DNA of 55,001 nucleotides from a virus. Numbering within the stretch: position 1 is the first letter of the stretch; each line of letters starts with the position of its first letter. The position numbers were made by a program, and so were the translations under genes. Below the pieces are notes generated by a model. The model searched no databases and was not told where the DNA came from. It worked only from the letters and a program-made list of their open reading frames with translations. The stretch spans positions 1-55,001 of the IMG/VR virus record IMGVR_UViG_3300024288_000002. One strand, written 5' to 3'. Below are positions 24,678 through 47,399 of the stretch, one piece after another.

Positions 24678-24855
24678 GAAGTCCCTCAGTATCTATAGCG
24701 CTCCAGAGTTTGTTTTCCAAAAGGCGATAATCCCTTTCTAGGTCAGCATCTCTGAATTCAAGGGCGGTGTAGGCAAGCTGCAACGAGTGCTTACCATTAA
24801 TCACTTTGATTATGTGCCTGCGTCGTGACTTGTCGTAGTATAGTTCCCGTATCAT
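24670..24855 (-). CDS. small basic protein of unknown function
   Basis: A 61-residue protein (RELYYDKSRRRHIIKVINGK near the start) whose start overlaps the end of the DNA polymerase gene, and whose end overlaps the HNH-like gene. It is basic at the N-terminus and acidic/helical later (FRDADLERDYRLLENKLWSA). The tight coupling suggests a polymerase-associated function, but no family is recognised. Confidence 0.5.
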   Translation of the reverse strand: MIRELYYDKSRRRHIIKVINGKHSLQLAYTALEFRDADLERDYRLLENKLWSAIDTEGLHA

Positions 24856-27281
24856 TATAAGTCACCCCAGTTCTTGCCTACGGAGATGTCGACGGGGAAG
24901 GGAACGTAGTCGGTAAACTTTGTTCCCTCTTCGGCCATGACTGTACTGAGTAGTTTCGAAACTTCGTCTGTCCTAGTTTCTGCACACTCAACCACAAGTG
25001 CATCATGGATAGTAAGTCGGATGAAGCCCAGACCACGCAACATCGGTCGCAGACGTATAAGAGCGCTAAGGCAGATGTCGGAGGCAGTTGATTGTGGCAG
25101 GTAGGACAGCGCTTCATTCATCACCTCTCGCTTGTTCTGATCCGTGATCAACCAGAATCGTCGATGTCTTCCGAATGGAGTGACAAGGGGCTTGCCCGAC
25201 AGTACATGCGCCTTGATACCCTCTTGCCACCTCATCACGTCCGGGATCAGATTCGTAAAGCCTCTGTATAGCTTCTCGCCCTCACTAGCCGACAAGTTAT
25301 ACTCTTTTGCGACGGACCAAGACTCTCGACCATAACCGATGCCGTAGAAGAATGCCTTAGTTCGAATGTATTCTTCCTTGCCCCACTTGCCTGAGCCGTA
25401 CAACTGATCGGACAACTCGTTGAAGAACTTGTAGTCCGGATCAGGATTGCTCAGGATTTGTCGGAGGTATTCGTCCTGAGCTAGGAACGTCATCACTCGA
25501 GCTTCGACGTTTTTGTAGTCGGCTTGGATTAGGACATTCTCAGGTCGTGTGACACCAAACTGCCGTCTAATTTCCTTATCACGTACAATGTTCTGGAGAT
25601 TTGGATTTCGAGATGCCAACCGTCCTGACGTCGAACCGTGGAGCATGTAAGTAGTATAAACACGTCCGCGGTACATTCGTTTGCGGATTCCAGCGATATA
25701 TGTACTGTAGAGCTTGTGCTGTCGTCGATACCTGAGAAGAGCTTTGACAAACTCTCTTCGGGCACTCCCAACAGGCAGTCGGGTGAGCAGCGCTGTGAGT
25801 GTTTCTTCGTTCGTAGAAGCAACTTGCACCTTCTGCGTTTCTAGATACGCCTTAACTTGCTTCGGCGATCGTGGGTTGATTCCAAGCCATGCACCATCAT
25901 CCAAATGCCCTGTTGACTTCTGGATGACGACGTCCATTTCATTCTCGATGCCATCGAGACGGTTGAGGTACTCCGTCTCAAGCTTCGCCATGGCATCCCG
26001 ATCGATCTGGATCCCATTCAACTCTAGGAACATGAGCTGGTTGGAAGCCTTAACCAGGAAGTCATGGACCTTACGAACGTCCTCACGTTCCATCGCCTCT
26101 GTGAATAGCTCGTACAGTTCCCAAGTACATGCTACGTCATATGCATTGTACTTGTAGAGGATTGGTCGTGGAATGTTCGCGTAGTTACCACGCCTAGGAA
26201 TGAACCGCTTGATCTCGTCGTCGTACTTCGGAGCGCCAAGCTTTTCTACTGCGAGGACTTTAAGACCATGGTTACCTGGTCGTTCGTCGAGACAGTAGGA
26301 GGCGAGCATGGTATCGAACCAGAGCTCGAGGGCTCCGAGCTTGGGGTAAAGTCCGGCAAGGTCAAATTTGCCGTTGTGAGCAATGAGTCGCTTTCCACGA
26401 AAGAGCTCCCGCAGTCGACTGACCACCTTAGGGTCGGTAAGTGGATGCTCACCCAACACCACAGCTCGTCCCCTTGCGTAAGCAATTCCCACGCAAAGTA
26501 GAGAGTAGTTGTTCGGGTGGTCATCGCCGGCGACGTCTTTCTCAATACCCACCTCAATGTCGATAACGAGAGGTCCCTCAAGTCGTTCCAGTTCGTCGAT
26601 GACTGCGAGCGTCTGATCAACATCGTCAAATGCTCGCCACTCAGGTTCACGCCAAGACTCACGTCTACTCTCCTTCAGCTTCCCTATATCCGAAACGAGC
26701 GCTGGAAACGCATCTGCATTGCGCAGGCAGTACGCCGGGTGCCAAGTCGGAACAACCCGGATATGATTCGCCTCGCCCGCATTTGCACTGAGAAATCTTG
26801 CGCCAGTCTTAGGTGGGCCAACTCGGAGAGTGGTAATTGTGCCTGGATCGTCAACCAGAAGGGTGCCCGCCGTGCCGCCAAGTGCAATGATATCGGTAGT
26901 CTCGAATTGCTGTACTTCCCGTGCGAGACGAGCCTTACATGCAGTAACCGCACTACGAGGAGGAGTTGCGTTACTCTCAGGCCTACATAGACAAACATTG
27001 GTAAGAAGTACCTCGCTTCGTTTTATACTGTGATGCTTAAGTACAGCATCCAGCAGTTTTCCGCTAGGTCCCGTGAATGGTTTTCCGTAAGTCCCCTCGT
27101 AGAAACCAGGAGCCTCACCGACTACAACTAATCTACGTTCGCCTTCAGCTCTCGGGCGCCACAGATCTCTTCCAGCTGCTTTCACCCCCTGTGGGATTTG
27201 CGAAGGCACATACGGGGCGTCTCGCAGCGGGCAGTGGGAACAATCAGCTCCTAGCGCTTCAGCTTTCACTGTCCTGCCCAT
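24855..27281 (-). CDS. uracil-DNA glycosylase fused to family A DNA polymerase
   Basis: An 808-residue two-part enzyme. Residues 1-200 match family 4-type uracil-DNA glycosylases: two N-terminal iron-sulfur Cys in CSHCPL, motif 1 GEAPGFYEGTYGKPFTGPSG, two further Cys in NVCLCRP and AVTACKA, and motif 2 PTWHPAYCLR. From about residue 235 a 3'-5' exonuclease domain follows (PLVIDIEVG; IAHNGKFDLAGL; YNAYDVACTWELY), then polymerase motif A (QADYKNVEARV), motif B (RTKAFFYGIGYG) and motif C (TIHDALVVE). It would copy phage DNA and may sense or remove uracil at the same time. Confidence 0.92.
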   Translation of the reverse strand: MGRTVKAEALGADCSHCPLRDAPYVPSQIPQGVKAAGRDLWRPRAEGERRLVVVGEAPGFYEGTYGKPFTGPSGKLLDAVLKHHSIKRSEVLLTNVCLCRPESNATPPRSAVTACKARLAREVQQFETTDIIALGGTAGTLLVDDPGTITTLRVGPPKTGARFLSANAGEANHIRVVPTWHPAYCLRNADAFPALVSDIGKLKESRRESWREPEWRAFDDVDQTLAVIDELERLEGPLVIDIEVGIEKDVAGDDHPNNYSLLCVGIAYARGRAVVLGEHPLTDPKVVSRLRELFRGKRLIAHNGKFDLAGLYPKLGALELWFDTMLASYCLDERPGNHGLKVLAVEKLGAPKYDDEIKRFIPRRGNYANIPRPILYKYNAYDVACTWELYELFTEAMEREDVRKVHDFLVKASNQLMFLELNGIQIDRDAMAKLETEYLNRLDGIENEMDVVIQKSTGHLDDGAWLGINPRSPKQVKAYLETQKVQVASTNEETLTALLTRLPVGSARREFVKALLRYRRQHKLYSTYIAGIRKRMYRGRVYTTYMLHGSTSGRLASRNPNLQNIVRDKEIRRQFGVTRPENVLIQADYKNVEARVMTFLAQDEYLRQILSNPDPDYKFFNELSDQLYGSGKWGKEEYIRTKAFFYGIGYGRESWSVAKEYNLSASEGEKLYRGFTNLIPDVMRWQEGIKAHVLSGKPLVTPFGRHRRFWLITDQNKREVMNEALSYLPQSTASDICLSALIRLRPMLRGLGFIRLTIHDALVVECAETRTDEVSKLLSTVMAEEGTKFTDYVPFPVDISVGKNWGDL

Positions 27282-28009
27282 TCCTTGAAGATTCGAATGT
27301 TAGCTGCTAGTACTCTAGGGTCAACCTCCTTCTTCACGGTGAAGTAATCGGATCGTCGTGTGCTCCAGGCATCGATTGTGGTAAGTTGCTTACCAACCTC
27401 TGCCAGCTTGAACGGCTGTGCTGAGTCCATAGATCGGACTCCCTCGAATTGTACGTGATACATCTCTTGTGGATATATGCTGTTCAATCCGAGTAAGTGG
27501 ATCTTAAACCTTTTTGGATAGACTCTATGGATAGCACGTGCGATCTTCCGACGGATCTCTAGGTCTTCATGTGTAACGAGGACCTTCGGAATCCCGATGG
27601 CGGTGATCAAACTATTCTGAGCGTACTTCTTTAGCAGGAACTGTCTGTCGCTTAGCTCCTGTCCTTGTAGTACGCCCATGATGTTGTAGTTCGATGCTTC
27701 CGGACCATACTCGTCTAGGAAGGCATTTGTTGCTTCGAGTGTTGCAGCTGCGTCGTTCATAACGTCAGGTGCAACAATCTCGTGCGGCTTGATAGCTCGG
27801 GCGAAGTTCAGAAGATCTTCACCGTTAGCGAGCTGATTCTCAGCACACCCATTGTCTAGGATGATGTAGTGCCCACGTGCCCGAGCTGTTGCGTATGTTC
27901 TCAGGTATGAAAGGTTGCGACGCAGCGAGGCTAGTGGCAACACTAGGTGGATGTCACTGTGAAGTGCTTCCTCTTCATACCCCTTAGGAGGGATTAATGC
28001 TGCGCGCAC
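27266..28009 (-). CDS. TGT-like DNA transglycosylase candidate (DpdA-like)
   Basis: A 247-residue TIM-barrel-like protein. The TGT pattern appears as IILDNGCAENQ, IVAPDVMNDAAATLEATNAF, NIMGVLQGQ, AIGIPKVL, IHLLGLN and SMDSAQPFKLA, the last containing a likely nucleophilic Asp. In phages, DpdA proteins swap guanine in DNA for a 7-deazaguanine such as preQ0. All four genes for making preQ0 lie directly upstream in the same operon. It lacks the C-terminal zinc site of tRNA enzymes, as DpdA proteins do. The GTG start shares a base with the previous stop (TAGTG). Confidence 0.75.
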   Translation of the reverse strand: MRAALIPPKGYEEEALHSDIHLVLPLASLRRNLSYLRTYATARARGHYIILDNGCAENQLANGEDLLNFARAIKPHEIVAPDVMNDAAATLEATNAFLDEYGPEASNYNIMGVLQGQELSDRQFLLKKYAQNSLITAIGIPKVLVTHEDLEIRRKIARAIHRVYPKRFKIHLLGLNSIYPQEMYHVQFEGVRSMDSAQPFKLAEVGKQLTTIDAWSTRRSDYFTVKKEVDPRVLAANIRIFKEWAGQ

Positions 28010-28377
28010 TACTGTTCCTTTACGCTTGTGAATCGGGAGGACTTGATGAAGCCTGACTCGAGACTGTCCGGTGGAAGTGCAGCTGCGATTGACTCTTGTA
28101 GTAGACGCAGCTTGATGTAGGTGTATCGGGCGTAGTTGGCTAGATCGACGATCTCGTGGAGCGCTTCCTCGATGGTATCGACGGTTAGGAACTTTCCGGG
28201 GCCATACTTCTCGGCGCCCATTCCATGACGCTCTTCGGTCATGCGATCGAACTCTTCACTCAAGGCGAAGACGACCCCTGCGAGCTCTTGTGCGGCCTCT
28301 TCAGCCTCGGCTGACCCACGAAAGGTCATGTGCTCCTCGTCAGCCTGACGTTTGAAGTCGTCGGTTATATCAGGCAT
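28009..28377 (-). CDS. MazG-like nucleotide pyrophosphohydrolase candidate
   Basis: A 122-residue helical protein. HGMGAEKYGPGKFLTVDTIE and EALHEIVDLANYARYTYIKL resemble the alpha-helical MazG-like fold with acidic metal ligands (EE near residue 28, ExxD in HEIVDLAN). Such phage enzymes hydrolyse nucleoside triphosphates. Within the preQ0 operon it could adjust guanine nucleotide pools; this is inference. Confidence 0.6.
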   Translation of the reverse strand: MPDITDDFKRQADEEHMTFRGSAEAEEAAQELAGVVFALSEEFDRMTEERHGMGAEKYGPGKFLTVDTIEEALHEIVDLANYARYTYIKLRLLQESIAAALPPDSLESGFIKSSRFTSVKEQ

Positions 28378-29036
28378 TAGTGACCACCATTCAATCTTGA
28401 AAGGAATTCGGCCTTTGCGGTCCGGGTGTGATCGTTGAATACACCTGACATGACGGCCGTGTACGTCTTAGTGCCCGGTGTTTGTACACCGCGAATTGTC
28501 ATGCAGAGGTGTTCTGCTTCCATGACAACCGCAACGCCACGAGGCTTGAGGTTCTTCTCGAGGAAGTCTGCAACCTGTTGAGTGAGTCGTTCCTGAACCT
28601 GTAGAGCCTTGGCGAAGTGATGTACAACACGGGCGAACTTACTTAGTCCGGCCACGAACTCACCCGGCACGTAGCCTATGTCTGCCTTCCCAATAAACGG
28701 GATAACGTGATGATTGCAGAGGCTCACGAATGGAATGTTACGGACGATGATCATCTCGTCCATTCCATCATTCGGAAAGCACTTCCACTTGATCGGAAGT
28801 GGTTCGGTAAGCTCCTTCAGCATGTGAACGAATCGTGTTGGTGTGTCCTGACCATGTATGTCGTTGACGTCGAGACCTGCGGAAGTACGAAGAAGTACCT
28901 CAGCCGCTTCGATCGCCTCCTTCTCAGGATCGGCAAACATATGTGCAAGAGATGGATGGTTCCGTCGGACTAAGTCCAGGCCCATTCGTTCGAACACGCC
29001 TTGCAACTCTTCAGGTATTGGTTGTTCTCCAGGCAT
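28377..29036 (-). CDS. folE: GTP cyclohydrolase I
   Basis: The 219-residue protein opens GTP to dihydroneopterin triphosphate, the first step of preQ0 (and folate) synthesis. Zinc and catalytic residues are visible in FVSLCNHHVIPFIGKADIGY (Cys, His) and EAEHLCMTIRGVQTPG (His, Cys); VAGLSKFARVVHHFAKALQV and QERLTQQVADFL complete the signature. Its neighbours encode the next steps QueD, QueE and QueC. It overlaps both neighbours by TAATG. Confidence 0.95.
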   Translation of the reverse strand: MPGEQPIPEELQGVFERMGLDLVRRNHPSLAHMFADPEKEAIEAAEVLLRTSAGLDVNDIHGQDTPTRFVHMLKELTEPLPIKWKCFPNDGMDEMIIVRNIPFVSLCNHHVIPFIGKADIGYVPGEFVAGLSKFARVVHHFAKALQVQERLTQQVADFLEKNLKPRGVAVVMEAEHLCMTIRGVQTPGTKTYTAVMSGVFNDHTRTAKAEFLSRLNGGH

Positions 29037-29374
29037 TAGGCGTCCTTGTTTTCGAATTGAGCCCTTGGCACAACGATCTTCCGTATAGCACCGTTGTCCT
29101 GTTCTTGGTGAATGGCGACCAACGTCTGTAGCGATGGGGGCGACAGACGAAAGCGGGTGAGACGTCCGAATGGCTTTCCCGTACGTCGGGTGTGATTCAT
29201 CCCCATCGAACGGAGGTGCGCACGATTCGGAACCGACTCGCTTCGGTGCTTGGCGATCTCCTTCTCGTCTGCGCCTTCGCTCTTCAGACGCTTGAGAAGG
29301 TTCTTCTCCAATAGTGCTGCCATACGATCGATAGCACCCTTACGGTTCTGCTTGCCTGTACGTGTACGTAACAT
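29036..29374 (-). CDS. basic protein of unknown function in preQ0 operon
   Basis: A 112-residue strongly basic protein between QueD and FolE genes. It has a helical N-terminus (IDRMAALLEKNLLKRLKSEG) and a loop-rich middle (NHTRRTGKPFGRLTRFRLSP). No motif is recognised. Its location, coupled to folE, suggests a role in DNA modification or in presenting DNA to the transglycosylase. Confidence 0.5.
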   Translation of the reverse strand: MLRTRTGKQNRKGAIDRMAALLEKNLLKRLKSEGADEKEIAKHRSESVPNRAHLRSMGMNHTRRTGKPFGRLTRFRLSPPSLQTLVAIHQEQDNGAIRKIVVPRAQFENKDA

Positions 29375-29382
29375 GCTACTCC

Positions 29383-29853
29383 TTATGGTAGCTGGTACTC
29401 AGCTCCGTTGGTGTTTGTTTCCTGGACAAAGATCCTTATTGGGAACTTGGCTCCAAACTTGTCGCACATGGCTTCGCAGATCCACTTGGCGATGTTTTCC
29501 GTCGTAGGATCTCCTGGCCATGTACGCAGACCAGGCAAAGTACTCCATGAGATTGCCGGAACTTCTTTCATGGGATCGTACTGGTGATCGTTGATGAGTT
29601 CACGTGACCATGGATCTTTGTAGTTGAGGTGGAGTTGGTGATCGAGCTGCTCGTCGATGAGCGTACGAAAGACCTTCTTCACCGATCCGAAATCGAGTCC
29701 AGCGAGAAGACCTTTCTCATCGATATGTCCTGCGATATGCATCTCGATCTGCAACGAGTGACCATGAATGTGCTCGCACTTACCTGGCAGGTTCATGAGC
29801 CGATGTGCGATCTCAGCATTGTGACTTACGTAGATACCTGCTCGATGGCTCAC
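29383..29853 (-). CDS. queD: 6-carboxytetrahydropterin synthase
   Basis: A 156-residue protein making 6-carboxy-tetrahydropterin from dihydroneopterin triphosphate. The zinc site is formed by SHNAEIAHRL and the HIHGHSLQIEM segment; the catalytic Cys precedes it (GKCEHIHGH). GLDFGSVKK, LDHQLHLN, PTTENIAKWI and a closing ETNTNGAEY complete the family. The GTG start at 29853 overlaps the previous stop (GTGA); the longer open frame upstream is shadow sequence of that gene. Confidence 0.93.
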   Translation of the reverse strand: MSHRAGIYVSHNAEIAHRLMNLPGKCEHIHGHSLQIEMHIAGHIDEKGLLAGLDFGSVKKVFRTLIDEQLDHQLHLNYKDPWSRELINDHQYDPMKEVPAISWSTLPGLRTWPGDPTTENIAKWICEAMCDKFGAKFPIRIFVQETNTNGAEYQLP

Positions 29854-30191
29854 GAGTCGTCTCCCAGTTGCAAAAGCATCTGAGCGGCTTCGAGATTTGC
29901 TTCGACCTTTTCGGTCATCTTGTCGGCGAGCTGCTCGGAGCGACTTGACTCCGGTGCGACCTCGGCTGTCTTGATCATGGTACATGGAGGAAGGAGATGA
30001 CCTATTTTTAGGCCATTCTCGTCGTATACCATGACGAACGCACCTTCGACGTTCCACCCACCGTACGTCGAGTAAACCACAACAGGGTCGATCTCCCCGT
30101 CGTATACTTCGACACGATACTTGATTGGAATCACTTCGGGCTCTATCCCTTCGTAACCATCATCCAGGAAACTTCTAACATGCTCGCCCAT
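29850..30191 (-). CDS. unknown protein between queE and queD
   Basis: A 113-residue acidic protein starting MGEHVRSFLDDGYEGIEPEV. The first two thirds look like a beta-rich domain (YRVEVYDGEIDPVVVYSTYG; GAFVMVYDENGLKIGHLL) and the end is a helix (KMTEKVEANLEAAQMLLQL). It is coupled to queE by TAATG and to queD by GTGA. The family is not recognised. Confidence 0.55.
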   Translation of the reverse strand: MGEHVRSFLDDGYEGIEPEVIPIKYRVEVYDGEIDPVVVYSTYGGWNVEGAFVMVYDENGLKIGHLLPPCTMIKTAEVAPESSRSEQLADKMTEKVEANLEAAQMLLQLGDDS

Positions 30192-30931
30192 TACCTGCCC
30201 CTTGTGTCGCTCCATAGTAGGATGTGTGTACGGAATGATAGTCCGTATCCACGCGCAATTGCTTGGTCCACGATGCGTCGAGCTGTATCGACGTTCTGCG
30301 CAACGCTTGTACCTTCAGGCATGACCATTACACGATTCGTATCAATACCTGCGACACGAACGATCTCGTCGACCTCGGGAAAGTCTTCCGTGGATCTTAC
30401 TACGAACTTGAACCACGCCTTAGGACTTTGTGCAAAGTACTCTAGCGTTTCCCAGCGACGACGTTTGTTGATTATGTTACCACTGTGCTTCAGCTTTGGC
30501 GACACGTTGTATTGTGCTACGTGTCTATCGAATGGAAGCGTTGGTGTTATTGTTGCGGCTGTCTCGATGTGAATCGAATCTCCCCAGCCAGTCAGCGTCT
30601 GAATGAGTGGCAGCAAATCGCGCTGCTGCATCATAGGCTCACCACCAGAAATGACAAGCATGGTAGGCCAAGTAGCTATATCCCATAGCTTGCGAAGCTC
30701 GGAGATAACCTCGTCGACCTGCATTGTCTTGCGGTTCGCAGCCTTGTCGTGAATGATAGGCACTTCGAGCTTGCTGGCGAGCTCCGCGTTGAACGCCCAC
30801 GTGTATGCAGTATCACACCACGTGCACCGAAGATTACAGTCCGCCATCCGGAGGAAGAGGCAGTGTCTACCACTTGCTGCCCCTTCCCCCTGGACCGTAG
30901 GTCCGAAGATCTCATTGACCTGCAAGGTCAT
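30191..30931 (-). CDS. queE: 7-carboxy-7-deazaguanine synthase (radical SAM)
   Basis: A 246-residue radical SAM protein. VNEIFGPTVQGEGAASGRHC is the typical QueE start, and the iron-sulfur/SAM motif occurs as CNLRCTWCD. ISGGEPMMQQRDL and IHIETAATITPTLP are the SAM-binding GGE and following strand. It converts carboxytetrahydropterin to 7-carboxy-7-deazaguanine, the substrate of QueC. It overlaps queC by TAATG. Confidence 0.94.
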   Translation of the reverse strand: MTLQVNEIFGPTVQGEGAASGRHCLFLRMADCNLRCTWCDTAYTWAFNAELASKLEVPIIHDKAANRKTMQVDEVISELRKLWDIATWPTMLVISGGEPMMQQRDLLPLIQTLTGWGDSIHIETAATITPTLPFDRHVAQYNVSPKLKHSGNIINKRRRWETLEYFAQSPKAWFKFVVRSTEDFPEVDEIVRVAGIDTNRVMVMPEGTSVAQNVDTARRIVDQAIARGYGLSFRTHILLWSDTRGR

Positions 30932-31800
30932 TAGTTACTTGCCTCCATGGATCGATGAGTAGTGGCGATTTTCCAGTACTCAGTGTCGTCGTATACCGTT
31001 GAATCCGTGTACGGGAAGTCGTCCGGGCGCTCGTTGTTGAACTTGCGAAGTGCCTCGTCGATTGCCTCGAGACGTTCGACACACGTGCCACAACGGCCAC
31101 AGTGGTTCTCGCCGCCCTTGTAGCAGCTCCACGTCAGGTGGAACGGAACACAAAGCTGCAGCGCACGATAAGCGATGTCGGCCTTCGTCGAGTTTAGGTA
31201 TGGTGTTGTGATTGGCTTGGCTACGCTAGTGAAACCTTCAGCGATGACTTGAGCATCTCGGGTCGGATCAAGCTCGATGTCGAAGTTGTGAAAACCTTCG
31301 TTGCCAGCAAGCATTGCCTGACCGAGCGTGTAGATAAACACCGGACGACAATCCGGGTAGATGAAGTGATCACCTGCGTGGACGCCCATAGCGATTGTAT
31401 TCGCCTGACGATTCACAGCCATACCACATGCGATGGACAGCATGATCATGTTACGGTTAGGTACAACCGTCTGCTTCATGGTGTCCTGAGCGTAGTGACC
31501 CTCAGGCACGTCGATGTGCTTGCAGCCACCTTCAGTACCGTAGGTGTCAGATGTACCTGGGTGCGAAGTGAGTGCGCTGTTCGAGATGAATGGGGTGAGG
31601 CCGGAGAGGTCGATGACGCTGTGACGAAGTCCGAGCGCCCTCGATGTGTTCGACGCGAAGATAAGCTCCTTGCGATGACGCTGTCCGTAGTTGAACGAGA
31701 CAGTTTCAACCTTGTAGTCCTGCGCTAGCAAGTCGTATACCATGGTGGTGCTATCGAGCCCACCACTAACGATTGCTAGCGCTAACTGCTTTTGGGTCAT
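30931..31800 (-). CDS. queC: 7-cyano-7-deazaguanine (preQ0) synthase
   Basis: A 289-residue ATP-dependent enzyme. LAIVSGGLDSTTMVYDLL is the PP-loop; VSFNYGQRHRKEL and VPNRNMIMLSIACGMAVNRQ follow the family. Zinc Cys appear near the end as SCYKGGENHCGRCGTCVERL. It makes preQ0, which the DpdA-like protein may insert into DNA. The ATG at 31800 (GGAAGGATC upstream) lies inside the end of the primase-helicase gene; the open frame extends further upstream but without the family's sequence. Confidence 0.95.
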   Translation of the reverse strand: MTQKQLALAIVSGGLDSTTMVYDLLAQDYKVETVSFNYGQRHRKELIFASNTSRALGLRHSVIDLSGLTPFISNSALTSHPGTSDTYGTEGGCKHIDVPEGHYAQDTMKQTVVPNRNMIMLSIACGMAVNRQANTIAMGVHAGDHFIYPDCRPVFIYTLGQAMLAGNEGFHNFDIELDPTRDAQVIAEGFTSVAKPITTPYLNSTKADIAYRALQLCVPFHLTWSCYKGGENHCGRCGTCVERLEAIDEALRKFNNERPDDFPYTDSTVYDDTEYWKIATTHRSMEASN

Positions 31801-34033
31801 TGAACTTGATCCTTCCAACTGCTTCGTAAACGAATGTTCTCCCAAGACGTGACGACAAGATAAGCCCACGCTGCTCGAGAGTCCCGAAGACAATGTCGGC
31901 TTGACGTGCTTCGAGATGGTACCATTGCATCAATCGAGATCGAGTCACGCCAGGATTTCGACGTATACTCTTGAAGATCCGTTGCAGTAGGATCTCGTTG
32001 GCGGAACGTCCAATACCGTTGATGATCTCGGTAGCATAGTCCCTCCAACCTTCTCCGTACTTGATTGCAAGCAACAGGTCCTCTACCTCGACAGTTACAA
32101 TGTCTTGCTGCAATCGCGACGCTGCGATAAGTACAGCAACCTTCAATATGGACTTAGACAACCGGTCGTACACCGGCGTCATGATGTCTGGCTGGTCGTT
32201 ATTTACGCCTGCGTAAAGCAAGGTCGCTTCGAGCCTGTTGTATCTCTGCCAAGCCTCCTGAGTTAGCTCCGCATTCCATCTACCTTCCGAGATATCTACG
32301 GTCTTACCCTTAACGATTACCTCGGTGTTAAAGATGTAGTGGTCGCGAAGCTCTTCCAATTCATCGAGGAGGACTTGACGTCCAGCCAAGTTCTGCTCCG
32401 TTGGAGGTCCCAAAGGCTGTAAGGTACTCACATCCGATTCCGCCGTTAAGAACAAGAACCGCGGGACAAAACCAGATGATACATGATCTAGGGTCAATAA
32501 CGACTGGATTCGCGTCTTGATCCCGCCTGCGAATATCAGGAGGCATGGTTCCCTAACCGTCACCGTTTCACGCTTGAGGACTCTTTTCATGGTCTTGCCG
32601 TCGTACAATTTTGTAAGAGCCTCGGCCATGCCAGCCATGTAGTCCTTGCGCGCCATCGCTTCGATGAGCCCCGAGAACTCGTCGCGCAGAAACATTGATG
32701 GCTTTCCAGGCCGGATTTCTAGTGACTGCATGAGCCCTTCTAGCGAGCCATCTGTTGCCAAGAGGACGTTGTCGTCCACCTCGTCCAGCATGTCCATTGC
32801 TATATCCATAGCAGTCGATTTTCGTGTCAGCGTCGTATCCGCCAGAAGCATGAACCACAAGTTCGGCATAATGGTCCCGAACGAGGTTGGCAAGCGAATC
32901 GTACCAGCAAGAAGTGAACTGAGGATCATAAGGGCGCCGGCTTGGTGGTACGCTACTGCCGCGTCCCCAAGAGTACTGGCCCATTCTATGTACCTTTCGA
33001 CGAATGTTTCGTAGCCATCCAGAGACTTGAGCTCGTCAGGCGTAATGAGGGGGGCTTGCTTTTCTGTCTCAGGTACAAGGATGTTAAGCTTCTCAACCGT
33101 CATAAGGTATGCGCGACAAACTTCTTCCCATAACAGACGTGGGTGCTTGCCATCGCGCTTGTACTTATTGCAGGCTGCGTCTGAAGCTACAACGAACACT
33201 TCTTCTCGGGACAGACCGGCTTCGAAGCAAAGCATCTGAAGCTGCCATAACGGCTTGCTCCATCCACCTTCTTCGTCGTCATTAGGCGGTTGACTATGAA
33301 TGCTAAATACGATTGGGTTGATCGATCTTCGATACCTTTGCAGGATGTCTACTGCAGCTTCGGTGGGAAGCACTTCAGGCATTGGATCATGGTCAAGGGT
33401 GTTGACTCGTGATTCGGCGTAGTCGCTAAAGTCTTCGATGTGGTAGTAAGTCTTTTTCGCCGTTAAGATCTGGACTTCGTACGGTAGTGCATACTTCATG
33501 TTGAACGTTCCAGGCACACGAAGCAGCTGCGTAAGATCCCAGCCACCACTATCAGCACCATCTGGTACGTGGTGGTACGTGATGTTCCTACTTACTTGCT
33601 CGGCCACCGCGGGGGTTACTGCTTTGTCGAAAACCCACAGGGCCTGCCATCTTGCGGGCGACGTTTGGACTATGATCGATGGGGCGACGAGCATAAGTGA
33701 TGGATCACACGCGTCGAGATCAGCCCAAGCCGCTGTACACATCTTGACGTTCTCTTTAACTCTTGCGCTCTTTGTTCCAGGCGCACGTTGGTTAGTCTTA
33801 AGGAGCTGGGGACAGAAGTACACATTTGCCGTTGCCTTGTTTTGGGAGATATGGTGCATCATTCTTGGAAGGTCTTCTGGGTACTTAAAGAACTCTTCCG
33901 TAAAGCCCTTCTTGCCTGTAATGTTTGTTATGTACGCAACGCATACGTATCCATCTGCTTCTGTCCCGAACAGCAGCTTGAAGAACGTTTCCTGTCTTAG
34001 GCGTTGTTCTTCCGGCGAGGCCGGTGTTGCCAT
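31766..34033 (-). CDS. primase-helicase (AEP-like N-terminus, DUF3987-like ATPase)
   Basis: A 755-residue protein. Near residue 105, TAAWADLDACDPS supplies the paired Asp of archaeo-eukaryotic-type primases, followed by IIVQTSPARWQALWVFDKAV and LLRVPGTFNMKY. From about residue 345 the second half resembles DUF3987 ATPases: a Walker A-like LLADTTLTRKSTAMD, FLRDEFSGLIEAMA as Walker B, and LIFAGGIKTRIQSLL. The C-terminal ~90 residues resemble a winged helix (NPGVTRSRLMQWYHLEARQA). It would prime and unwind phage DNA. Confidence 0.85.
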   Translation of the reverse strand: MATPASPEEQRLRQETFFKLLFGTEADGYVCVAYITNITGKKGFTEEFFKYPEDLPRMMHHISQNKATANVYFCPQLLKTNQRAPGTKSARVKENVKMCTAAWADLDACDPSLMLVAPSIIVQTSPARWQALWVFDKAVTPAVAEQVSRNITYHHVPDGADSGGWDLTQLLRVPGTFNMKYALPYEVQILTAKKTYYHIEDFSDYAESRVNTLDHDPMPEVLPTEAAVDILQRYRRSINPIVFSIHSQPPNDDEEGGWSKPLWQLQMLCFEAGLSREEVFVVASDAACNKYKRDGKHPRLLWEEVCRAYLMTVEKLNILVPETEKQAPLITPDELKSLDGYETFVERYIEWASTLGDAAVAYHQAGALMILSSLLAGTIRLPTSFGTIMPNLWFMLLADTTLTRKSTAMDIAMDMLDEVDDNVLLATDGSLEGLMQSLEIRPGKPSMFLRDEFSGLIEAMARKDYMAGMAEALTKLYDGKTMKRVLKRETVTVREPCLLIFAGGIKTRIQSLLTLDHVSSGFVPRFLFLTAESDVSTLQPLGPPTEQNLAGRQVLLDELEELRDHYIFNTEVIVKGKTVDISEGRWNAELTQEAWQRYNRLEATLLYAGVNNDQPDIMTPVYDRLSKSILKVAVLIAASRLQQDIVTVEVEDLLLAIKYGEGWRDYATEIINGIGRSANEILLQRIFKSIRRNPGVTRSRLMQWYHLEARQADIVFGTLEQRGLILSSRLGRTFVYEAVGRIKFNDPKAVSASNR

Positions 34034-39932: not shown

Positions 39933-40248
39933 TTGGATCCTTCCAAGTCAGTATCTTGCTGTTAGGGTCTACGAATACCTCATCGGACAGGATTGGCTTG
40001 GATGCTTCGAGCCGCTCAGCGAAGAGTACCCACTCGTGGTCAGGGAGTTCGGAACTACGGTCCTTAGGACCCACCGCACACTCCACTTCTACTAGCTCGA
40101 AATTGTTACTCGGGCTTCGTGGTTCGTGCTTGGGGTGAAGATGGATGAGTGACTCTTCAGGCCAAATTGCATCCATTACTCGGTAATGAGCATCCTTGCG
40201 GATTGCATCGAGATCGGTCTTACCTGAGGAGTGATAATAGATATGCAT
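39922..40248 (-). CDS. unknown protein downstream of SNF2-like helicase
   Basis: A 108-residue protein starting MHIYYHSSGKTDLDAIRKDA with later SNNFELVEVECAVGPKDRSS and HEWVLFAERLEASKPI. It starts in the stop of the helicase gene and may be its partner. No family recognised. Confidence 0.5.
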   Translation of the reverse strand: MHIYYHSSGKTDLDAIRKDAHYRVMDAIWPEESLIHLHPKHEPRSPSNNFELVEVECAVGPKDRSSELPDHEWVLFAERLEASKPILSDEVFVDPNSKILTWKDPNDK

Positions 40249-41735
40249 TACGCCTCGATCTCTACTACTGTCTTGTCACCTAGGAGTTGCTTCAACCAGG
40301 ACCATTTGAGCTTGATCATCTGCAAGCGGCCACGATCGACCGTGTCATCAGCAACGACGTCTATTACTTCGACGGCGTTCTTCTGACCGATACGGTGAAG
40401 GCGATCCTCAGCCTGCCGATTTTTAGATGGGTTCCATGTCCTGTCAAGGAAAATGACTGTTGAAGCGGCTGTGAGTGTAATGCCCTCGCCACCCGCATGA
40501 ATTGTTCCAGCGAATACGCGTGCACTCCCATTTTGGAACGTGTCGACCAAACTACCGCGATGGTGCTGTGGTGTGTCACCAGTGAGCACCACGTGAGAGA
40601 CGTTCGCGGCTTTGAGTCTGGCGACGAGCAGTCGTATAATTTGTTTCGATTCACTGAAAACAACGACTTGCTTGTCAGGATTGTCACCAATCTTCTCCAT
40701 AACTACGTCGAGCTTGGATGATGGCTCCGACAGCTTGACTCTGGTGAATCCCTCTTCATCGCCTGTTTCAGGATTCTTCTTCATGAACCACTCTAGCTCG
40801 GCAAAGGCGAGAGCGAACTGCTTCAATCGTATCAGCTGCGCAACAACGATCGGTGCTGCGATAGGTTCAGACTCATGCTTTCCTACCCACGCGAGCATCT
40901 CACTACGCATTTGATCGTAGATACGACGTTGCTTCGGAGCAAGCTGGACCTTGATCTCCGAATAGTACTTCTCCGGAAGATCGTCGATCACTTCTTCTTT
41001 CAGGCGACGGATGTAGTACGGCGCAATGGCTTCTGCCAGCTCGTCGATATGTGCTACACCCGTTACCTTCTTGAACGTACCTTTGTGATATCCACCACAA
41101 GGTTCTTCTGTTCCGTCTTCCTTGGTCATGATGGCGAAACAGGCACCCTTGTTATGGGTTTGAATCTTGACGAAGTAGTTATCGAACCTGTTGTGGCTAG
41201 ACCACACCTTAGGGTACAGCCAGTTTAGGATCGACCAAAGGTCTTGGGGTGCGTTGTCTGCAGGGGTTCCAGACAACGCTGTCTTGTAGCTTGTACGAAG
41301 CTTCTTCAGCCCTTGTGTTTGTTGCGACTTAGGATTCTTGGCGCGGTGAACTTCATCGGCGATAATATGCCACCAATGAACGTCTCGCAGCTCTTCCACT
41401 AGGCGTAGTGCTTCCCAGTGAACGACGTAGTAGTGATATGGTTCATGTAGCTTGTTGATAAGGTCTTGTCGGTTCTTCGGATTGATTACTACAACCCTGG
41501 CACCGACCCAGATCCGCTTGATGTGATCGTACCAAGACGATAGAACCGTCGATGGTGCAATGATCAACGTCTTGCAGTCTGTCTGCTTGTAGCCATCCAG
41601 CTGCTTTGTCCGTCTTCGTAAGTCAAGTGCTAGGGCTTCAACTGTCTTGCCAGTACCCATGTCGTCGCCGCAAAGTACACCAGGCACATACTCGAACTTG
41701 TCAACCATTACCTTTTGGAAGGGGTACAACTTCAT
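40248..41735 (-). CDS. SNF2-like DEAD/H helicase
   Basis: A 495-residue superfamily 2 translocase. Motif I is GDDMGTGKTVEALALDLRR, motif II is IIADEVHRAKNP (DEVH), motif III ALSGTPADN, motif IV-V HVVLTGDTPQ and FAGTIHAGGEGITLTAA, and motif VI DRLHRIGQ. Such phage proteins remodel or displace DNA-bound proteins during replication or recombination. It has an insert with CFAIMTKEDGTEEPCGGYHK, possibly a small metal site. Confidence 0.9.
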   Translation of the reverse strand: MKLYPFQKVMVDKFEYVPGVLCGDDMGTGKTVEALALDLRRRTKQLDGYKQTDCKTLIIAPSTVLSSWYDHIKRIWVGARVVVINPKNRQDLINKLHEPYHYYVVHWEALRLVEELRDVHWWHIIADEVHRAKNPKSQQTQGLKKLRTSYKTALSGTPADNAPQDLWSILNWLYPKVWSSHNRFDNYFVKIQTHNKGACFAIMTKEDGTEEPCGGYHKGTFKKVTGVAHIDELAEAIAPYYIRRLKEEVIDDLPEKYYSEIKVQLAPKQRRIYDQMRSEMLAWVGKHESEPIAAPIVVAQLIRLKQFALAFAELEWFMKKNPETGDEEGFTRVKLSEPSSKLDVVMEKIGDNPDKQVVVFSESKQIIRLLVARLKAANVSHVVLTGDTPQHHRGSLVDTFQNGSARVFAGTIHAGGEGITLTAASTVIFLDRTWNPSKNRQAEDRLHRIGQKNAVEVIDVVADDTVDRGRLQMIKLKWSWLKQLLGDKTVVEIEA

Positions 41736-47318: not shown

Positions 47319-47320
47319 GA

Positions 47321-47399
47321 GGGGATGAAAGGAATCGAACCTCTATATACCGTGCAGCAGCCAGTAAGCACGGGCGCTCTACCATTGAGCTACATCCCC
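47321..47399 (-). tRNA. tRNA-like RNA with enlarged anticodon loop
   Basis: The acceptor (GGGGATG/CATCCCC), D arm (GCTC AATGGTA GAGC) and T arm (AGAGG TTCGATT CCTTT) are canonical. The anticodon stem is CCGTGC/GCACGG, with a 12-base loop (TTACTGGCTGCT) in place of 7. No CCA is encoded, and the discriminator would be U. Its first 13 bases match those of the element at 43989-44084, so both derive from one ancestor. Confidence 0.7.

Follow-up and report, generated by a model that had tools for sequence, protein, structure and literature searches.

Some phages are reported to replace every guanine in their DNA by a 7-deazaguanine. In CP220 and CPt10, 100% of deoxyguanosine (dG) is reported to be replaced by dADG (PMC8306585). 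Replacement is partial in Rosebush and CAjan, at 28–32% of G, and the transglycosylase DpdA1 of CAjan is required for DNA modification (PMC6884629). For phages without a recognised DpdA, Hutinet et al. (2019) considered a modified-dGTP route or undetected deoxyribosyltransferases possible (PMC6884629). In a different system, MazZ, encoded beside datZ, makes dGMP for PurZ (PMC8342488). Here we analyse a cassette of the uncultured virus record IMGVR_UViG_3300024288_000002, whose entire 55,001 bases form our window. The cassette joins the preQ0 pathway to a short transglycosylase of the TGT fold (short TGT); its phage lineage had no DNA match among the phage records searched. The surprise was the association of the short TGT with MazG-type and nucleotide kinase genes.

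A complete preQ0 pathway beside a TGT-fold enzyme

The cassette lies on the minus strand in the order QueC, QueE, ORF121, QueD, ORF112, FolE, MazG-like and TGT-like, and its open reading frames (ORFs) overlap or nearly touch at their ends. An initial annotation, made from the sequence alone, had described these eight genes with overlapping starts, and all are present in that order. It had also named four preQ0 enzymes with catalytic motifs, a call borne out by family searches: Pfam for FolE, QueD and QueC, all above cut-off, and PHROGs for QueE. FolE (28377–29036, 219 aa) is a GTP cyclohydrolase I with the motif CNHH ... EHLCM (Pfam, 5.4e-54). QueD (29383–29853, ~156 aa) is a 6-carboxytetrahydropterin synthase with the motif CEHIHGH (Pfam PTPS, 3.3e-23). 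QueE (30191–30931, 246 aa), a radical-SAM 7-carboxy-7-deazaguanine synthase with the motif CNLRCTWC, matches the QueE-like PHROG at 1.3e-52; its TIGR03365 (1.9e-25) and Pfam Radical_SAM scores are both under the curated cut-off. QueC (30931–31800, 289 aa), the preQ0 synthase, matches Pfam QueC (7.7e-51) and TIGR00364 (163 bits against a cut-off of 150) and carries SGGLDSTT and CxxxxxxxCxxC motifs; a Pfam scan found no amidotransferase domain in it. In the DNA, QueC starts with ATG at 31800 and QueD with GTG at 29853, in a GTGA overlap with the stop of ORF121. The pathway is thus complete, each enzyme having its active-site motifs.

The last gene of the cassette (27266–28009, GTG start), which we call dpdA, encodes the 247-aa short TGT with Asp52 (LDN), Asp82 (PD) and Asp195 (SMDSAQP). 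Single-sequence searches were weak: NCBIfam DpdA (NF041059) scored 3.1e-5 but reached 23 bits where the cut-off is 200, tgt_general scored 1.3e-3, also far under cut-off, and phmmer found no match in the PDB. Adding relatives made the TGT assignment firm. An AlphaFold model with ten relatives as input reached a pLDDT of 92.4 and a pTM of 0.90, and the top 50 PDB matches in a fold search were all TGTs (E about 1e-7), so an unrelated TIM barrel is not the better fit. The best viral fold match was a Cellulophaga phiST protein. A 61-sequence profile matched PDB 7ui4, a DNA-guanine transglycosylase, at E 1e-4, with the HLLG and SxDS motifs aligned. Across these 61 diverse proteins D52, N53, D82, R153, H171, L173, G174, D195 and N237 are invariant, and the catalytic Asp pointed out in the initial annotation is among them (Asp195). 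Judged by its modelled fold, this protein of 247 aa is a genuine enzyme of the TGT fold.

The same annotation called this protein TGT/DpdA-like. The TGT half of the label holds; the classical DpdA half does not. Only at the profile level is the short TGT tied to DpdA1: its profile and a ten-sequence DpdA1 profile align with 90% probability (E 1.7e-6), with Asp52 paired to LDSG and Asp195 to CDSS (CDSSSW). The best E of DpdA1 proteins against the short-TGT profile is 0.024, which is not significant. By sequence comparison, therefore, the short TGT is a divergent, separate family inside the TGT superfamily and not the classical DpdA of 9g.

Relatives found by tblastn come from Bacillus phage BSP7 and its kin, Cellulophaga and Brevundimonas phages, Flavobacterium phage immuto (5e-3) and Campylobacter phage CC_R7 (3e-3). 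Via immuto, the search extends at about 44% identity to several Campylobacter phages, among them CP220 and CPt10 (immuto–CP220, 3e-50), and a single short-TGT profile recovers the CP220, CPt10 and immuto proteins. This family is probably the one that Cui et al. 2023 reportedly named DpdA3. A Bacillus-type alignment used as scan query matched no viral contigs. The QueE region of KVP40, viewed while seeking the DpdA2 of nt-1, which was not located, has no annotated TGT.

Given a complete preQ0 pathway and a TGT fold with its catalytic Asp, 7-deazaguanine DNA is the best prediction, and it is very probable that the short TGT installs preQ0 in the phage DNA.

MazG-type and kinase genes recur beside the short TGT

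Lineage neighbour counts were made by hand, 'near' meaning within two genes of the transglycosylase gene. A nucleotide kinase is near the short TGT in 9 of 12 phage lineages, three of them with a T4-gp1-type deoxynucleoside monophosphate (dNMP) kinase (DNMK), as against 0 of 10 DpdA1 loci. With MazG included, the counts are 10/12 and 0/10. In this scoring, which was post hoc (the first loci had already been seen) and used lineages that are not fully independent, P was 0.0005 for the kinase and 0.0001 for kinase or MazG; collapsing related controls to six gave 0.009 and 0.0015. The dNMP kinase family PF21448 directly follows the short TGT in Ahp1 (1.7e-17), D479 (5.7e-9) and Bakedbeans (7.7e-4), and small P-loop kinases of other kinds are near it in BSP7/Youna2, phi19:2, MA9V-3, immuto, CP220 and CC_R7. 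MazG or PRA-PH is near the short TGT in phi19:2 and immuto, and an HD-kinase fusion in CP220.

Viral contigs show the same neighbours. Among 80 immuto-type loci, a kinase lies close to dpdA in 68 and PRA-PH/MazG in 76; a DNMK is next to the short TGT in 41 of 77 Ahp1-type loci. In R7M, a DpdA1 phage, the MazG gene lies elsewhere, and neither MazG nor a kinase is beside dpdA.

Other neighbours were also seen. The immuto-type loci (L201–L280) share a conserved cassette of folE, PRA-PH, dpdA, a formyltransferase, a kinase and a second FolE/QueF-type gene; in our window, a scan with profiles built in this analysis found one FolE/QueF-type gene only. In a motif scan, DUF3310 (PF11753) directly follows the short TGT in about 29/80 Ahp1-type loci, mostly those with no DNMK there; Rhizobium phage RHph_I1_18 encodes it as a fusion with the TGT. 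Positions noted for DUF3310 are L127:3359–3670, L133:3846–4163, L109:4001–5269 and L061:6744–7157. DUF3310 is a possible partner of the short TGT. Genes with ParB-like nuclease domains lie beside DpdA1-type genes of actinophages and Cellulophaga phi3ST:2, joined at a single locus by another DpdA-like gene (L116:993–1610, L116:3390–3983, L118:4603–5067 and L119:202–861).

The MazG slot in the lineage of the window

Scans of viral contigs recovered the phage lineage to which the window belongs at about 80 loci, a recurrence that shows the arrangement is not due to chance. No contigs of the lineage or its host were found among the cellular genome contigs scanned. Gene order is conserved across the lineage: primase, queC, queD, queE, folE, MazG slot, dpdA and polymerase. 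In the window, the flanks are a RepB-primase/DUF3987 primase upstream (31766–34033, minus strand; Pfam 4.5e-17, PHROG DNA primase 1.8e-84) and, downstream, an 808-aa protein with an N-terminal family-4 UDG domain and a family-A DNA polymerase (24855–27281, minus strand; Pfam UDG 3.7e-26, DNA_pol_A 1.8e-56). The polymerase assignment passes the curated Pfam cut-off. The polymerase gene overlaps the transglycosylase gene, and it adjoins dpdA in nearly all relatives. No queE was detected in L065, L069, L070, L071, L076, L078, L083, L091 and L092, which keep queC, queD and folE, reflecting either loss or divergence.

Further counts refer to the 58 loci that span queC to dpdA. The conserved partner overlooked in the initial annotation is the MazG slot before dpdA: at least one of two MazG-type genes occupies it in 58/58 loci. 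One is the MazG-like gene, in the same slot in 53 of the 58. The other, a canonical MazG gene in 50, shares the interval between folE and dpdA in relatives; its motif GEvGE..KK..RG..E..D is conserved over 63 sequences, and its Pfam MazG scores, up to 3.4e-5, hover near the cut-off.

The MazG-like gene of the window (28009–28377, 122 aa) lies directly upstream of dpdA and encodes a small helical protein with the motif EFD..RH..G.EKYG...EE..D.ANYARY. Motif and slot agree with its earlier label as MazG-like. The window protein had no Pfam, PDB or fold match, Pfam MazG matched 0 of 46 family members, and hhalign against the phi19:2 MazG was unsuccessful. The family showed a weak match to PDB 2p06 (E 0.06), and AlphaFold gave a helical hairpin (pLDDT 74, pTM 0.37). 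The label is therefore a motif call.

Proposed mechanism and alternatives

Our model builds on the observed gene content, TGT fold, catalytic residues, kinship with CP220 and CPt10, and recurring MazG and kinase neighbours. FolE, QueD, QueE and QueC would convert GTP to preQ0. A MazG-type enzyme, if specific for dGTP, would cut it to dGMP. The short TGT, in which Asp195 would be the nucleophile and Asp52 the acid/base, would swap guanine on 2'-deoxyribose for preQ0, presumably turning dGMP into dPreQ0-MP. The dPreQ0 triphosphate would then be made by a kinase, which many relatives encode themselves and which the window phage would take from its host, and the adjacent polymerase would incorporate it. 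Most or all G positions of the phage genome would probably carry 7-cyano-7-deazaguanine, and the genome would resist restriction enzymes. As a whole, this guanine-replacement cassette with a nucleotide-pool exchange step has close to an even chance of being correct. That the short TGTs as a family are nucleotide-level purine exchange enzymes (dGMP + preQ0 → dPreQ0-MP + guanine), with MazG before and a dNMP kinase after them, giving total replacement prior to replication, is a tentative proposal whose chance we put a little short of even.

The recurrent MazG and kinase neighbours suggest, but do not prove, that base exchange occurs on dGMP before polymerisation, in analogy to MazZ and PurZ. Such a route fits the total dG replacement reported in CP220 and CPt10 and recalls the two possibilities considered by Hutinet et al., modified dGTP and deoxyribosyltransferases.

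Several points weigh against exchange at the nucleotide level. Canonical TGTs work on polymers, and other roles have been proposed for MazG. Cui et al. 2023 reportedly call DpdA3 insertion post-replicative. Net charge, used as an indicator of binding to DNA, was no different enough to tell the short TGT from DpdA1. Brevundimonas phage StAshley has neither a kinase nor MazG adjacent to its short TGT, and the neighbour scoring was post hoc. The window itself has only the motif-called MazG-like gene and lacks the canonical MazG that its relatives carry, and none of its listed P-loop ORFs was recognised as a nucleotide kinase gene.

The strongest alternative keeps the same cassette and the same base, with the short TGT acting after replication on polymerised DNA and MazG and the kinase merely managing nucleotide pools. 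TGT and DpdA offer precedent for this, since classical DpdA is thought to act in that way and the best PDB profile match of the short TGT is the DNA-guanine transglycosylase 7ui4; the requirement for DpdA1 in CAjan points in the same direction (PMC6884629). Closeness to the polymerase is uninformative on the level of insertion, because DpdA1 genes also adjoin clamp and polymerase genes, and we dropped it as evidence for this reason. Against post-replicative action stand the dNMP kinase and MazG/PRA-PH neighbours, which recur beside the short TGT and are absent at the DpdA1 loci examined, and the complete replacement in CP220 and CPt10 (PMC8306585), unlike the partial replacement in DpdA1 phages (PMC6884629). 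We consider it a serious possibility that nonetheless falls clearly below even chances, and we lean slightly towards exchange in the nucleotide pool over exchange in polymerised DNA.

The two small ORFs could instead be dedicated parts that modify preQ0 further or aid the transglycosylase, so that the final base would not be preQ0. ORF121 (29850–30215, minus strand) encodes a small acidic protein that aligns among relatives, and ORF112 (29036–29374, minus strand) a small basic one (family median pI 11.3); neither had a significant family match in Pfam, PHROGs or NCBIfam. Both are translationally coupled within the cassette and conserved inside the clade of the window, to which they are limited. 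Their presence is also complementary to canonical MazG: 8 loci have an ORF without MazG, 48 the reverse, 2 both and 0 neither. This pattern may reflect a single event in that clade, and most relatives with an intact preQ0–dpdA cassette lack the ORFs, which show no enzyme signature. The initial annotation had put them forward as possible new parts of the system; since ORF112 occurs in only 8/58 loci and ORF121 in 9/58, they are not core and are probably accessory, and a dedicated role for them is improbable.

Finally, it is very unlikely that the TGT-like protein targets tRNA or protein while the preQ0 genes boost host queuosine: there is a case elsewhere of QueC-type chemistry being turned to the modification of protein (PMC13329287), but the protein is kin to those of CP220 and CPt10, whose DNA is fully modified, its single Cys leaves no tRNA-TGT zinc site (CxCxxC...H), and its gene sits in a replication operon against the polymerase.

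Elsewhere in the window, positions 40248–41735 encode an SNF2-type helicase (Pfam SNF2-rel_dom, 1.5e-42) and positions 47319–47399 a tRNA-Lys (CTT).

Comparison with known systems

MazG-type hydrolases and dNMP kinases are repeatedly encoded together with the short TGT family, which occurs in CP220, CPt10 and a large uncultured lineage; DpdA1 differs in this respect. Given this recurring association, a single purified enzyme is enough to test directly at which level insertion takes place, and nucleotide-level exchange would allow DNA to be made in which every guanine is a 7-deazaguanine.

Of the described systems, the S-2L Z-cluster (datZ-mazZ-purZ) is a functional analogy only: there, a MazG-type (d)GTPase feeds dGMP to an adjacent base-altering enzyme and replacement is total, but the chemistry differs and the window cassette is not counted as a member. 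General cassette family scans, none aimed at PurZ or DatZ, turned up neither. Bacterial DpdA (PDB 7ui4) is the best PDB sequence match of the short TGT, but has 436 aa. DpdA1 of 9g, CAjan and Rosebush shares with the window the TGT superfamily, the preQ0 pathway and a position beside replication genes; it differs in profile family, in length (median 308 aa against 249 aa for the short TGT) and in that neither MazG nor kinase genes adjoin it at the loci examined. The CP220, CPt10 and immuto enzymes are only about 20–25% identical to the window protein, and their pathways differ: CP220 ends at dADG and immuto has QueF and a formyltransferase, but QueC alone was recognised in the window. The enzymes are nevertheless homologous, about 250 aa long, share the invariant residues and have nucleotide kinase or PRA-PH/MazG neighbours, and immuto, like the window, also has preQ0 genes beside its short TGT.

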